A stretch of 20,178 nt of DNA from a virus, in the IMG/VR virus record IMGVR_UViG_3300025616_000050, positions 1-20,178 of that record, one strand, 5' to 3'. This document shows positions 1 through 14,399 of the stretch, in pieces. Within the stretch, counting starts at the first letter, position 1, and each line of letters starts with the position of its first letter. Both the position numbers and the translations under genes were made by a program. The notes beneath the pieces are model-generated. The model worked only from the letters and a program-made list of their open reading frames with translations, was not told where the DNA came from and did not search any database.

Positions 1-691
1 GTGTTTCATCTTGTATCTCATCAGTCTCTTCTTCGTCAGCTTCAAAGTCTTGAGCATTTGATTGACCTTTCTCTTCAGACTCTTCTTCTTCAAATTCTTC
101 GTGATCGTCTGACATAGCTTTCATTTGTTCGATCTTGTCTTCCATAGCTTTCTTAGAATAGTCATAGATCTCTTTAGCTAACTTAATAACATCTTCACAT
201 GACTCAGTCTCTTCAGCGCGTCTTACGAATGCTTTCTCAACGTCTGTAAAAGTAACACCGCATGAGTAACCAGCTTTGAAATATAGGTTGATCTTGTCGA
301 TCAATAACATATCTTTAAAACCGTTAGCTACACCAAAGAAGTCACGGTCGTTAAGTTCTTTATAACCAATGTTAAATGACTTACGAAGGCCAGGATAACG
401 ACGCTTCATTAATTTTTCGATACGTACATCCTCAAGCACATTCATATAGCCTGAGAAGTGTGGTACATCTTTATGTGGGTTTTTAGTTGAATACTCTTCA
501 AGAGTAGTGTAAAGTGCATGACCTACTTCATGGCCAACTAGCATATCTAAAAGATTGTCAGTCATGTCCTTCCATTGCGGAAGTCTTAGGACACGGTTTT
601 TAATATCAAACGAAGCTGTCTTAACAGGGCCCTGGATGACCGTAAGGTTTTCGTTTGCTAATAATTTTGCTACTAAGTCTGTCTTTGTCAT
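1..691 (-). CDS. Putative phage metallopeptidase (HEVGH), 3'-truncated by window edge
   Basis: The reading frame is open from an ATG at 691 to the window edge, giving 230 residues without a stop; the C-terminus lies outside. Residues 54-58 read HEVGH, the HExxH zinc-binding motif of metallopeptidases. They are followed by an NVLEDVRIEKLM segment near residue 90 that could supply the third acidic ligand. The last 40 visible residues are very acidic (runs of Glu and Asp), a likely disordered linker. The start is well supported by GGAGAG ending 4 nt before the ATG and by a promoter-like element just upstream. Proteins of this kind, annotated as peptidases, occur in marine T4-like phages. Substrate and role in infection are unknown. 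The zinc-peptidase call rests on the motif; activity is inferred. Confidence 0.75.
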   Translation of the reverse strand, partial: MTKTDLVAKLLANENLTVIQGPVKTASFDIKNRVLRLPQWKDMTDNLLDMLVGHEVGHALYTTLEEYSTKNPHKDVPHFSGYMNVLEDVRIEKLMKRRYPGLRKSFNIGYKELNDRDFFGVANGFKDMLLIDKINLYFKAGYSCGVTFTDVEKAFVRRAEETESCEDVIKLAKEIYDYSKKAMEDKIEQMKAMSDDHEEFEEEESEEKGQSNAQDFEADEEETDEIQDET

Positions 692-714: not shown

Positions 715-746
715 ATTATACCCTATTTTATATTTAAAGTACATAG
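715..746 (-). promoter_or_regulatory. Sigma70-like promoter upstream of the metallopeptidase gene
   Basis: On the minus strand a perfect -10 TATAAT (715-720) lies 16 bp from GTACTT (737-742). The surrounding CTATGTACTTTAA block and the G after the -10 are shared with the promoter of the 60-aa gene. The predicted transcript would start near 708, leaving a short leader with a GGAGAG ribosome site. The element sits inside a perfect 11-bp inverted repeat. This is an early or middle phage promoter by inference. Confidence 0.65.
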
Positions 747-753
747 GGTATAA
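716..753. repeat. Perfect 11-bp inverted repeat around a promoter
   Basis: TTATACCCTAT (716-726) and ATAGGGTATAA (743-753) are exact reverse complements separated by 16 nt. The left arm contains the -10 box of the minus-strand promoter. The right arm places a GGGTATAA sequence on the plus strand. It could be an operator for a dimeric regulator, a hairpin, or part of a mobile promoter cassette; the sequence alone does not decide. Confidence 0.7.
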
Positions 754-794
754 GTTATTGATTTATATAGATAATTATGTAAGTTATTGATTTA
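751..794. repeat. Two direct copies of a 15-bp repeat (third, inverted copy at 1103-1117)
   Basis: TAAGTTATTGATTTA occurs exactly at 751-765 and 780-794 on the plus strand. Its exact reverse complement lies at 1103-1117. The copy at 780-794 covers the stop codon of the 60-aa gene, and the copy at 1103-1117 covers the stop codon of gene 46. The repeats bracket the 60-aa gene and its control region. Confidence 0.85.
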
Positions 795-966
795 AAAGAT
801 ATTCTTGTAGGGAGGTTAGGGGGTAGCCTAAGTTGTATTTTGCTTGTAGCCAAGATGATGCTTGGATTGATTCTTTGAGTTCACAATTGTTGGATAGTGA
901 TGTGTCAATAATTAAGCGGTTTTGTGATGGTGAAAATTGTAAGTAATAAGTGATTTGTGTTGTCAT
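784..966 (-). CDS. 60-aa orphan protein of unknown function
   Basis: A 60-codon frame starts at an ATG preceded by a good ribosome site (GGAGAG, 3 nt before the start) and a well-formed promoter-like element 23 nt upstream, so it is probably expressed. I do not recognise the family. The protein is soluble-looking, with no signal peptide, membrane segment or cysteine pair; it has one Cys near residue 28 and a leucine-rich C-terminus. It lies between gene 46 and the metallopeptidase gene in a cassette flanked by 15-bp repeats. Small genes with their own early promoter are typical of host-takeover or accessory proteins in T4-type phages. That role is only inferred from context. Confidence 0.55.
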   Translation of the reverse strand: MTTQITYYLQFSPSQNRLIIDTSLSNNCELKESIQASSWLQAKYNLGYPLTSLQEYLLNQ

Positions 967-988
967 AAACTCTCCAGGTTAAAGAAAC

Positions 989-1020
989 ATTATACCTAAA
1001 AAGCTATTTAATGTACATAG
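989..1020 (-). promoter_or_regulatory. Sigma70-like promoter upstream of the 60-aa gene
   Basis: On the minus strand GTACAT (1011-1016) is followed after 16 bp by a perfect TATAAT (989-994) and a G. The context CTATGTACATTAAATAG closely matches the element at 715-746. The predicted start is near 982, 16 nt before the ATG and upstream of the GGAGAG site. A GC-rich stem-loop block lies directly upstream. Confidence 0.65.
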
Positions 1021-1099
1021 GCCCCTGGGCCCAGACAGGGTATATTGACCTATCTAGCCAAAAAATGGGCTGTCCTGGGCGCTGCCGGGAAAGTTTCCC
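1021..1099. repeat. GC-rich block of inverted repeats in the gene 46 to 60-aa gene gap
   Basis: This gap is strikingly GC-rich against AT-rich surroundings. It holds the 10-bp palindrome CTGGGCCCAG (1025-1034). GCCCAGACAG (1029-1038) can pair with CTGTCCTGGGC (1070-1080), giving 10 bp with one bulged base. GGGAAAGTTTCCC (1087-1099) is a 6+1+6 inverted repeat. On the minus strand a run of six T lies at 1060-1065. It could act as a processing or termination structure after gene 46, but no classical hairpin directly followed by a U-tract is present. A stem-loop plus promoter resembles the mobile regulatory cassettes (PeSL) described in T4-type phages. Confidence 0.6.
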
Positions 1100-1102
1100 A
1101 TA

Positions 1103-1117
1103 TAAATCAATAACTTA
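1103..1117. repeat. Inverted third copy of the 15-bp repeat, covering the gene 46 stop
   Basis: TAAATCAATAACTTA is the exact reverse complement of the 15-mer at 751-765 and 780-794. It includes the TAA stop of gene 46 (1115-1117). Confidence 0.85.
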
Positions 1118-2833
1118 TGAGTTAGTTACCACAGAGCTAAAATCGTTAGTCTTTTCAAAGCGTATGTTATTCTTAAACTTATCAAGAAGCACATCACCTT
1201 TATGGGATATAACAAACACATTGGTATTTTCGCCCAGTGTATCCATTACAGATAGGAAGTAATCGGTACCAGCCACGTCAAGACTAGAATCAAAGATCTC
1301 ATCTAGTAATAACAAGTTGGTGTTCACCGAGTTTTTCATCTTAGCGATCTGGCGCCAAGTGAATAGGATTGCGAGGTCGATACGCATCTTCTCGCCTTCA
1401 GAGAATGAGGCATAAGTGAACTCGTCTCTAAACCTAGATTTAATCGATTCATTGAATGATTCATCTAGTTCAAACTTAACAAAGAAGTCCATTGCGGACA
1501 GGTACATGTTAATTAATTTATTCATCGCCGGTAAGTATTCTCTAATGATAGTGGTCTTGATACCGGTATCTCTTAATAAAACTCCAGCGATCTCTTGTAA
1601 TTGTTTCTCTTTTATAAGTTCCATCTTTGATTCATTCTTTTGTAGTGCATCATTAGCTAATGTCTTGATCTTATCCTTCTCAACATCGATGTCACCTTGT
1701 ACAGATAACTCGTTGATCTCTTTCTCAAGTTGTTGGTTAGCTTTAACAAGCATGTTCATACCATTGATCTCTGTAGATATAGAGATATTCTTATCTTGTA
1801 TTTGATTTAAGACATCTTGTTTCTCTTGTAGGTCTACACTCAATTTACTATATGCAGAGTTAAGTGTATCCATATTGTTTGTGATCTGTTGTTTGCTTTC
1901 AGTTATCTTACTGATGATCTTATCTTTATGTTCATGTTGGATACCTTGCTCACACGATGGACACGTCTCGTTACTAGTAAAGAATTCTATATGCTCATCG
2001 ACTTGCGTAAGTTTTTGCGACAGCTTATTCATGTTTGATTTACACATATCAATATTTTTATCTACATCAGCTTTATCATGTAGTTGTGTATTAAGTACCT
2101 CTATATCTTTATTAAGTAGATCTACTAATTGAGTCTTATCATTTATCTCGTTGATGTTAGTATCGATCTTATCTCGCAACACCTTAACGTTTTGGTCCTT
2201 AGAGTTTTGTAATGAATCGATCAAACTCTTTTGAGCTTTAGCTTGTTCAGTAATGATACGGATCTCAGTCTCCACTGCAGACAGTTCTTCTTTGTTCTCC
2301 GCAATCTTTTCTTTAAGGATAGTATTCATCGTTGAGAATACCTTGATGTCAAGGATGTCTTCGATGACTTCACGTCTTTGCCACACAGGTAACTGCATGA
2401 ACGGTACAAAGGAAGCAGATCCTAATATCACTACCTGGGTGAAGGTTTTATAATTTAATTTTAGGATCTGCTGTTCGAGGACTTTTTGATAATCTTTTAC
2501 GGCAGCATCTTGGTTGATGATAGTCCCGTTCTGATATATCTCAAAGATATTAGGTTTGATACCGCGTACTACTCTATAGTGTATAGGACCAATGTCAAAC
2601 TCAATCTCAACCACACAGTTCTTTTGATTAATAGAGTTTACTAGTTGGTTCTTATTGATGTCTCTAAATGGTTTATTGAACAGTGAGAAGGTAAGTGCAT
2701 CAAGGATAGTGGACTTACCTTCACCGTTTTTCCCAACTATTAAGGTTGTTGAGTGACCATCTAATTGTACTTTATTTGCTGAGTTACCTGTTGATAAGAA
2801 GTTTTTCCAACTCACTGACTTAAATATTATCAA
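1115..2833 (-). CDS. 46: gp46, recombination nuclease SbcC/Rad50-like subunit
   Basis: This is the ATPase subunit of the gp46/gp47 complex, which resects DNA ends for recombination-dependent replication and helps degrade host DNA. At 572 aa it is close to T4 gp46 (about 560). The Walker A motif GKNGEGKS is at 34-41. A coiled-coil arm follows, with a zinc-hook CPSC (C291, C294) at its tip. The ABC signature SEGEK is at 478-482 and Walker B LLLLDE ends at D511-E512, followed by a D-loop-like SSLD. The start codon is TTG: AGGAGG stands 4 nt upstream, no nearby in-frame ATG exists, and the N-terminus matches the family. The TTG overlaps the TGA stop of gene 47, implying translational coupling. 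Confidence 0.96.
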   Translation of the reverse strand: MIIFKSVSWKNFLSTGNSANKVQLDGHSTTLIVGKNGEGKSTILDALTFSLFNKPFRDINKNQLVNSINQKNCVVEIEFDIGPIHYRVVRGIKPNIFEIYQNGTIINQDAAVKDYQKVLEQQILKLNYKTFTQVVILGSASFVPFMQLPVWQRREVIEDILDIKVFSTMNTILKEKIAENKEELSAVETEIRIITEQAKAQKSLIDSLQNSKDQNVKVLRDKIDTNINEINDKTQLVDLLNKDIEVLNTQLHDKADVDKNIDMCKSNMNKLSQKLTQVDEHIEFFTSNETCPSCEQGIQHEHKDKIISKITESKQQITNNMDTLNSAYSKLSVDLQEKQDVLNQIQDKNISISTEINGMNMLVKANQQLEKEINELSVQGDIDVEKDKIKTLANDALQKNESKMELIKEKQLQEIAGVLLRDTGIKTTIIREYLPAMNKLINMYLSAMDFFVKFELDESFNESIKSRFRDEFTYASFSEGEKMRIDLAILFTWRQIAKMKNSVNTNLLLLDEIFDSSLDVAGTDYFLSVMDTLGENTNVFVISHKGDVLLDKFKNNIRFEKTNDFSSVVTNS

Positions 2834-12385: not shown

Positions 12386-12825
12386 TATTTAGCTCTCATT
12401 TTGGCGAGGATAGCACCAGCTACTCTTTCGCCTGCTTCTTTAGAACCATATTTTTTACTAGCTTTATCAGCAATTTTATGGAAGTTTTTACCAGGTTTAC
12501 CTAAGTCTTTACCTGCACGACCAGCTTTTGCTGATAATGTAGCTTCATCAACTTGTTCTTCTTCATTGATTTCCACTAAGTCTTCTTCTGTAATAGCATC
12601 TAAAATAGAATCAACTTCTTCTTCTGTTAGTTCAACTTCTTCTTCAACAATTTCTGTTTCTTCAGCAGATTGCTCAGTAGCAAACATGCCTTGAGCTACA
12701 GACACTCTCATGTCTTCTAGTCTTGTTGAGATACGTGATGCCATCTCAGCATTAAATGCTGAATTGATAGCTTCTGAATCACCTGTACTAATTGCTGCGA
12801 TTAAGTCGTTAATACCTTGGGTCAT
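12385..12825 (-). CDS. Prohead core protein, gp68-like candidate
   Basis: The 146-aa protein sits directly after the portal gene, as genes 67/68 do in T4 (gp68 is 141 aa). The N-terminal helix (NDLIAAISTGDSEAINSAFNA and following) resembles the gp68-type core protein annotated in marine T4-like phages. A long glutamate-rich middle (55-95) and a strongly basic C-terminus (KKYGSKEAGERVAGAILAKMRAK region) give it a split charge like other internal head proteins. Its ribosome site AAAGGAG lies inside the last codons of gene 20, and the start overlaps that gene's stop (TAATG). Confidence 0.65.
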   Translation of the reverse strand: MTQGINDLIAAISTGDSEAINSAFNAEMASRISTRLEDMRVSVAQGMFATEQSAEETEIVEEEVELTEEEVDSILDAITEEDLVEINEEEQVDEATLSAKAGRAGKDLGKPGKNFHKIADKASKKYGSKEAGERVAGAILAKMRAK

Positions 12826-14399
12826 TATACTTCTCCTTTAGTTTTATTAGTAGCTGGTGGTAATCCAGGTGGGTTTGGACCTGCGCCCATTCCTCCGTCG
12901 ACTGGCATACCGCCTTGCATAGTCATCATGGCCTGCATCTGTTCTTGCTCTGCATCCATTTGTTTTTGTATCTCTTCAATATCTTCTTCAGACTGCTTAA
13001 GAACGTTTCGCTTAACGTACTCTAAACTATAGAATGTACCAATGTATGGCTGCATCATGTTTAGTACGTTGATCCTATTAGTAAGGATCTCTGAATCTTT
13101 TAACTCTGCGAAGTGGTTATCTTCTTGGAAGTCAAATCTAATGTCTTGAGAGATTTGATCCCACTCGTCAGGTCTGATAATCTGTTTAGCAACTAGTTGT
13201 ACTCTTAATGCTTCTGAGAATAACGCAGAGAACTTGCGTCTAATACGTTCAATGAACTTATTGAACTTGACTTCGTCTCTTGTTATCTCGTTTGATCTGC
13301 CAAGACTGAAACCTTGATCTGGCTTCATCCTTGATACAGGTACGTTCAAGCATTGGTACAACTTGTTTTGGAAATATTGTATGTCTTCGATCTGACCGAG
13401 GTTTTGACCGCCGTTCAGGGTAGTGATCTCTGTACCCTTGCCACCTTCTCGTCGAGGCATCCAAAAGTCTTCCATCATAGAGAGGTGTTTGCGGTCATCT
13501 CTGATCTCGCCTGTTGCGGCATCATAGACAACTTTATTTCTGTACTTATTCATGATATCATTAACGTATTGCTCAGCTTTAAGCTTAGGCAAGTTACCTA
13601 CGTCAATGTAAAATATTCTTCTTTCAGGTGCTCGCGATACACGGTAGATTACCAATGCATCTTCGATCATCTTCAATTGGTTTACAGGTTTGATCGCTTT
13701 ATGTAGATACCCTAACATGGTGTTAGAGTTCTGATCGATCAAGCCTGAAGGACAATAGATTACCGAATCAATCGATAACTTAACGCCTTGACTTGTATTC
13801 TCGTTGATACCCTTATCGTTGTAGATATAGAACTCTTCTATACCAACAACGACGTCAATACCTTTATCGTTCTTACCTTTTTTGATATTCTTGATACGTC
13901 GTATCTTACGTGGATCGATGTATCTTAACTCTTGAATACCATTCTTAATGTTCTCGTTGTCAATAAGGATGTGATAGTATAGTCTACCATCCACATACCA
14001 TGACCTAAATATGTCATGACCTCTGCTGTCAAACTTATAGAGTTTAAGGATCTCTTCAAACTCGTCTTGTATCATCTTCTTGACAGAAGCGGACAACTTA
14101 ACATCGTCTAGTACGACTTCAACGATCTGTTCATTGTTATTAGCAACGATCGCTTCGTTAATGATGTCCTCTACAGCATTGTCACAATCACCGTACTGAG
14201 ATACTTCTCTGTATCGGCGGATTAAATCATTCTCGTTCTTGATAACACCTTCAAGGTCGACAGTCATGCCATAATAGGCAGCTGCAGCTCCAAGTGTAGA
14301 TATTACCGTTGAGCCGTCATCCGGCGCAGGGGTTACAACTTCTGTGCCCTGCGCACGTTTGACTTTTTTCTTTGCTATCTCGAATCCAAAGATTTCCAT
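12825..14399 (-). CDS. 20: gp20, portal vertex protein
   Basis: gp20 forms the dodecameric portal through which DNA is packaged and on which the prohead is initiated. The 524-aa length equals that of T4 gp20. Recognisable blocks include IRRYREVSQYGDCDNAV, ELRYIDPRKIRRIKNIKKG, YRVSRAPERRIFYIDVGN, and LGRSNEITRDEVKFNKFIERIR, all characteristic of the T4 portal family. The C-terminus is a Met/Gly/Pro-rich tail. The ATG has AAGG 7 nt upstream and lies 30 bp after gene 19, with no convincing promoter between them. Confidence 0.96.
   Translation of the reverse strand: MEIFGFEIAKKKVKRAQGTEVVTPAPDDGSTVISTLGAAAAYYGMTVDLEGVIKNENDLIRRYREVSQYGDCDNAVEDIINEAIVANNNEQIVEVVLDDVKLSASVKKMIQDEFEEILKLYKFDSRGHDIFRSWYVDGRLYYHILIDNENIKNGIQELRYIDPRKIRRIKNIKKGKNDKGIDVVVGIEEFYIYNDKGINENTSQGVKLSIDSVIYCPSGLIDQNSNTMLGYLHKAIKPVNQLKMIEDALVIYRVSRAPERRIFYIDVGNLPKLKAEQYVNDIMNKYRNKVVYDAATGEIRDDRKHLSMMEDFWMPRREGGKGTEITTLNGGQNLGQIEDIQYFQNKLYQCLNVPVSRMKPDQGFSLGRSNEITRDEVKFNKFIERIRRKFSALFSEALRVQLVAKQIIRPDEWDQISQDIRFDFQEDNHFAELKDSEILTNRINVLNMMQPYIGTFYSLEYVKRNVLKQSEEDIEEIQKQMDAEQEQMQAMMTMQGGMPVDGGMGAGPNPPGLPPATNKTKGEV

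Follow-up and report, generated by a model that had tools for sequence, protein, structure and literature searches.

It has been reported that T4-like myoviruses carry promoter early stem-loop (PeSL) modules (Arbiol et al. 2010; Comeau et al. 2014; both as cited in PMC4503421). Binding sites for the host protein IHF span 30-35 bp and combine an AT-rich 5' part with a 13-bp 3' consensus (PMC7581858), the core of which is WATCAANNNNTTR (PMC8942017, PMC7581858), and the surrounding A/T elements govern the affinity of IHF for them (PMC10380432). IHF has also been described as stimulating the lambda pL promoter (Giladi et al. 1992, as cited in PMC8942017). In the Stenotrophomonas T4-like phage DLP6, PHIRE predicted 25 'phage promoters', of which 22 form pairs that precede gene clusters, and the clusters named include AAY80_060, 092, 113, 121, and 131 (PMC5349666).

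The locus considered here lies in a stretch of viral DNA of 20,178 nucleotides (the window), in which a pattern search located exact copies of the 15-mer TAAGTTATTGATTTA at 751-765 and 780-794 and, inverted, at 1103-1117, exactly where the initial annotation had placed them; the reversed control pattern gave no match in the window. The minus-strand gene order is late sigma factor gp55, gp47, gp46, a 60-aa ORF, and a peptidase. Gene 46 (1115..2833, minus strand), an SbcC-like recombination endonuclease subunit by family match, forms the upstream border of a slot whose downstream border is the peptidase gene (1..691, minus strand), which has an HEVGH motif, matches PHROG 459 'peptidase', and runs off the window. 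The annotation had also noted that the flanking repeat copies cover stop codons, and this was borne out: the copy at 1103-1117 contains the TAA of gene 46 (1115-1117), with which the inverted copy starts, and the TAA of the 60-aa gene (784-786) falls within the middle copy at 780-794. The 60-aa ORF (family A; 784..966, minus strand) is a real gene under purifying selection: its pN/pS is 0.14-0.25 in comparisons with nearer relatives and rises to 0.37-0.44 in those with the most distant ones. Its description as an orphan holds for PHROG and Pfam, searches of which returned no match for the protein, and neither the window nor any of four relatives had a match in Rfam.

T4-early-type promoters of the form GTAC(A/T)TTAA...GGTATAAT, of which there are 12 in a related 127-kb contig (G001) with a 95% identical gp46, precede both the 60-aa gene (989..1017, minus strand; TGTACATTAAATAG...GGTATAAT) and the peptidase gene (715..742, minus strand; GTACTTTAAA...GGTATAAT, with TATAAT). 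The inner repeat pair does enclose one gene and its promoter, with early-type hexamers at 1017-989, as initially proposed. Each repeat copy contains a 13-bp core, AATCAATAACTTA. Upstream of the peptidase promoter, a proximal core (751..763, minus strand) and a distal core (780..792, minus strand) have their centres 37 and 66 bp from the -10 element, respectively, and the centre of the inverted core (1105..1117, plus strand), an IHF-consensus core within the 1103-1117 repeat, lies 117 bp from the -10 of the 60-aa gene promoter; on its own strand, this core comes directly after AAGTTTCCC, an A/T tract followed by a C-run. A further sequence, TAAGTTATCGATTGA, with two mismatches to the 15-mer, was found at 13768-13782 within the coding sequence of a large ORF (12825-14399); it is retained at the matching sites in G001 and another relative (G003) and is probably a coincidence of conserved coding sequence.

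Between the inverted repeat copy and the promoter of the 60-aa gene lies a spacer (1018..1101, minus strand), which includes a T6 run after CCCA. The initial annotation had described a GC-rich stem-loop here; the segment is indeed GC-rich, but shuffled sequences fold about equally well (z -0.3 to -0.7), and terminator scoring gave no canonical terminator on its strand. A relaxed search for the GC-rich core yielded mostly unrelated contigs, plus the known relatives. The peptidase promoter lies inside a perfect 10-bp inverted repeat, TATACCCTAT-N16-ATAGGGTATA, at window positions 715-752 (z -2.6). In relatives, a different stem, AAGGGCTA...TAGCCCTT, was observed around the -35 element of the same promoter, and the differing sequences suggest compensatory change.

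A comparison of eight IMG/VR loci carrying the 60-aa gene and 80 loci carrying gp46 homologues (1.16 Mb) revealed that the region between gene 46 and the peptidase gene is far from invariant. Gene A alone occupies the slot in the window, L135, L006/L008, L009, and L137/L138, a second small gene (B) alone in L133/L134, L136, L061, and L142 (a 66% relative), and B plus A in L132/L005 and L007, while L140/L141 have unrelated ORFs. The slot of L139 holds a B-like gene, and there the peptidase is replaced by a gene that we take to be DUF932-like, judging by eye from its start, MAHMIAKTVDGKDAMAYVG; in the more distant L143, a gene of this kind directly follows gp46, with nothing in between. In the loci of the relatives, the gene 46-peptidase slot was the only genome position at which genes A and B were found. 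The GC-rich spacer is common to the window, L135, L139, L133/L134, and L009, accompanying gene A in the window, gene B in L133, and the B-like gene in L139, and it is absent from L006/L008 and L061/L136. Because the spacer is shared by loci with different genes and missing from loci with the same gene (L006/L008), the pieces appear to recombine at the slot. These data support the view that small genes are exchanged at this site and that an early promoter module of T4 type lies there, and to this extent the suggestion of a PeSL-like variant was sound.

Additional promoter arrangements were observed at this slot in several relatives. About 100-200 bp after gp46, L133/L134 have an early promoter, a short non-coding stretch (CTGGTATYCCGG...GACCTGCG), and a second early promoter; this double-promoter layout with the same stretch also occurs in L140 and L142 and is thus conserved between distant relatives, and the non-coding stretch is possibly a small RNA. 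Moreover, L140 and L142 (66-68% gp46 relatives) have no 15-mer and carry repeated TTGTTACAAT or GTTACAA words directly upstream of their early promoters, perhaps representing another upstream element.

The part of the PeSL-like proposal that did not survive the comparison is that the module has its own terminal repeats. In G001, AATCAATAACTTA or near forms of it occur at several other early promoters, as singles, direct pairs, or inverted pairs, and the module is present at 7 of the 12 early promoters. Two early promoters in this contig (locus L215; at 8449 and 122564) have motif pairs, 22 bp apart, that are inverted rather than direct. The repeat remains where the small gene has been replaced (L061, L136, L139), and in L139 the same direct pair stands before the DUF932-like gene. 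In L061 and L136, the direct pair is kept and the slot is occupied, whereas the inverted copy is missing. Many environmental T4-like phages share a wider motif, consisting of an A/T tract and then AATCAANNACTTA, of which the 15-mer is the local version, and even very distant phages have related motifs at their early promoters. The core AATCAAYAACTTA has 48 matches in the 80 gp46 loci, compared with 0-2 for scrambled versions. An 18-mer, GTAAAATCAACAACTTAC, was found in at least 119 IMG/VR stretches, whereas the 257 billion bases of the GTDB collection gave 67 matches. The Thiomargarita sp. SulCav MAG (DYNO01) accounts for many of these, on about 14 contigs, and no other genome has so many; since the GTDB matches are otherwise scattered, they do not point to a host group. 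On the other hand, AATCAANNACTTA is missing from T4, KVP40, 133, Aeh1, PhiW-14, IME-SM1, HTVC008M, and three cyanophages. Its absence from the first six of these, which have IHF-bearing hosts, indicates that the element belongs to certain lineages.

A BLAST search with the motif led to phage DLP6, which contains 30 exact copies of AATCAANNACTTA, mostly as direct pairs 25-26 bp apart. The pairs lie after a gene end and before a GC-rich stem-loop that runs into CTTTAC...TATAATGG, and one motif trio precedes an early promoter in the opposite orientation, which speaks for orientation independence. The five gene clusters named in the genome paper are among those behind the motif pairs, which indicates that the motif is already in print, where it was read as the promoter itself.

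The 13-bp IHF core WATCAANNNNTTR is present in all three window copies, and DLP6 has 32 matches to it, compared with 0.9 for permuted controls. Further features were found outside the search pattern. At positions -14 to -10, the A/T content is 84-97% among 77 non-redundant IMG/VR copies (background 60%), and the bases after this tract, at -9 to -6, are rich in C. The window copies are likewise A/T at -14 to -10, apart from a single G in the 780 copy and another in the 1103 copy, and the distal copies of DLP6 show an A/T bias again, at -12 to -10, despite the 55.8% GC of this phage (binomial test). Lambda attP has three consensus matches, at 27606, 27684, and 27764, which by position are presumably H1, H2, and H', respectively. 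The A6 tract of H' at -14 to -9 is in the same register as the A/T tract of the motif, and the site at 27606 (H1), AATCAACTACTTA, fits the motif exactly. No protein of the HU/IHF family (PF00216) was found in any of 20 phage records, so that host IHF would have to serve.

The motif copies are closely associated with early promoters. The proportion lying at most 150 bp upstream of early-type promoters is 10 of 11 in G001 (random-shift expectation 0.15), 8 of 9 in the relative G008 (0.12), and 23 of 35 in DLP6 (0.55), some promoters of which are missed by the pattern used for this count. For 13 forward promoters of DLP6, the distance from the core centre to the -10 element takes only the values 40-41, 50-51, or 61 bp. 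A Rayleigh test on proximal sites, the mixture of proximal and distal sites being uninformative, gave an R of 0.97 at 10.5 bp for DLP6; the spacing tests are post hoc, made after the data had been seen, and the duplicated DLP6 promoters are partly dependent samples, although the intervening stem-loops differ. Forward copies in other phages lie at 37-39, 48-51, and 61 bp, with weak helical phasing (p about 0.01-0.1), and reversed copies at unrelated loci in different phages cluster at 47-49 and 60 bp.

Taken together, the likeliest explanation, which we hold with moderate confidence on the basis of sequence features, is that the 15-mers are regulatory sites upstream of T4-type early promoters and that host IHF or an IHF-like protein most likely binds them. 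By bending the DNA upstream of the -35 element, IHF would raise or tune early transcription. Because the sites lie at the junction between a gene end and the next early promoter, the block of one or more sites, a spacer or stem-loop, and an early promoter constitutes a recurring gene-boundary module, and such boundaries are places of small-gene exchange, in this case the one that separates gene 46 from the peptidase gene. Against this explanation, two of the four free bases are almost fixed in DLP6, with AC at positions 9-10 (NNAC in 30 of 32 matches), which IHF does not require. A footprint of 30-35 bp fits on single copies, but at the 25-29 bp spacing of direct pairs the footprints would overlap, and both copies could hardly be filled at once. 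The absence of the motif from several T4-like phages with IHF-bearing hosts, the weak phasing outside DLP6, and the 117 bp that separate the 60-aa gene's own site from its -10 also count against it. This fixation of AC, the tight pairs, and the existence of motif-free T4-like phages keep a different protein as a serious rival, although a distinctly less probable one. A phage-encoded or different host regulator might read AATCAA-NN-ACTTA, an 11-base site, in tandem, the likeness to IHF sites being partial convergence; the restriction of the motif to some T4-like lineages, with 30 copies in DLP6 and none in IME-SM1 from the same host genus, would fit such a regulator. It explains less well why the A/T tract stands in the exact IHF register and why a lambda IHF site fits exactly, and it has no named candidate so far.

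The idea of a mobile cassette that moves by homologous recombination between copies of the 15-mer, which would be its terminal repeats or recombination seams, draws on the variable slot content of close relatives whose flanks and repeats stay alike, on the recurrence of regulatory blocks at gene boundaries, and on the PeSL-mediated shuffling described for T4-like phages (cited in PMC4503421). It is nevertheless improbable, given that copies of the repeat exist without a cassette, that they point either way and keep to restricted promoter distances, that the inverted copy is absent from some occupied slots (L061/L136), that genes A and B were found at one genome position only, and that 13-15 bp is short for homologous recombination. 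The repeats might still aid recombination, as a by-product rather than as their function. More doubtful still is an action of the motif as RNA, whether GTAA-loop-TTAC served as a hairpin or as a processing signal behind stop codons or the motif terminated transcription of the gene. Many copies do lie over stop codons, and some environmental copies have the form CCCTGTAA-AATCAACAAC-TTACAGGG, but copies are found in both orientations relative to transcription, no U-run is present, the stems are not conserved in DLP6 (e.g. AATGA...TTAGC), and better-than-chance folding in the window is confined to the separate promoter palindrome. The orientation independence and the lack of stem conservation in DLP6 led us to reject the hairpin. 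Chance repetition in AT-rich intergenic DNA has a negligible probability: the window is 62% A/T and 2.5 matches would be expected at three mismatches, but exact copies recur in relatives, the core is far more frequent in the gp46 loci than its scrambled versions, and conservation across phages with gp46 only 58-62% identical refutes this reading.

Should the sites indeed be bound by IHF, the 'phage promoter' motif of DLP6 and the supposed cassette end in the window would both be a host-factor site, which would help to explain how early genes are driven in many uncultured T4-like phages, and the motif would be an easy marker for early promoters and gene-swap points. That a large environmental T4-like lineage, unlike T4 itself, ties its early promoters to host IHF through spacing-constrained sites, with the blocks serving as boundaries for small-gene exchange, is a broader proposal to which we give about an even chance. 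The proposed action of host IHF upstream of an early phage promoter would resemble that reported for lambda pL, although a scan of the pL region found no IHF consensus match of 8/9 or better. The sites H1, H2, and H' of lambda attP share the WATCAANNNNTTR core with the window motif; those sites serve site-specific recombination, whereas the ones described here lie upstream of early promoters, often as close direct pairs. Unlike the repeats of a mobile element with terminal inverted repeats, the present ones also occur away from the element ends and in other orientations. The locus resembles the PeSL modules, as these are described in the works cited above, in that a T4-type early promoter adjoins a segment that is GC-rich or contains an inverted repeat, at gene boundaries with exchange of small ORFs; it differs in that one or two conserved 13-bp IHF-like sites precede the promoter, and the case for the stem-loop at the 60-aa gene as a terminator is not convincing. 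In its order, the window also resembles the DLP6 'phage promoters', where a direct pair is again followed by an early promoter, with a pair distance of 25-26 bp compared with 29 bp in the window; the repeated motif, taken as the promoter in the DLP6 paper, would here be an upstream site, and the promoter would be the CTTTAC...TATAAT that follows it.
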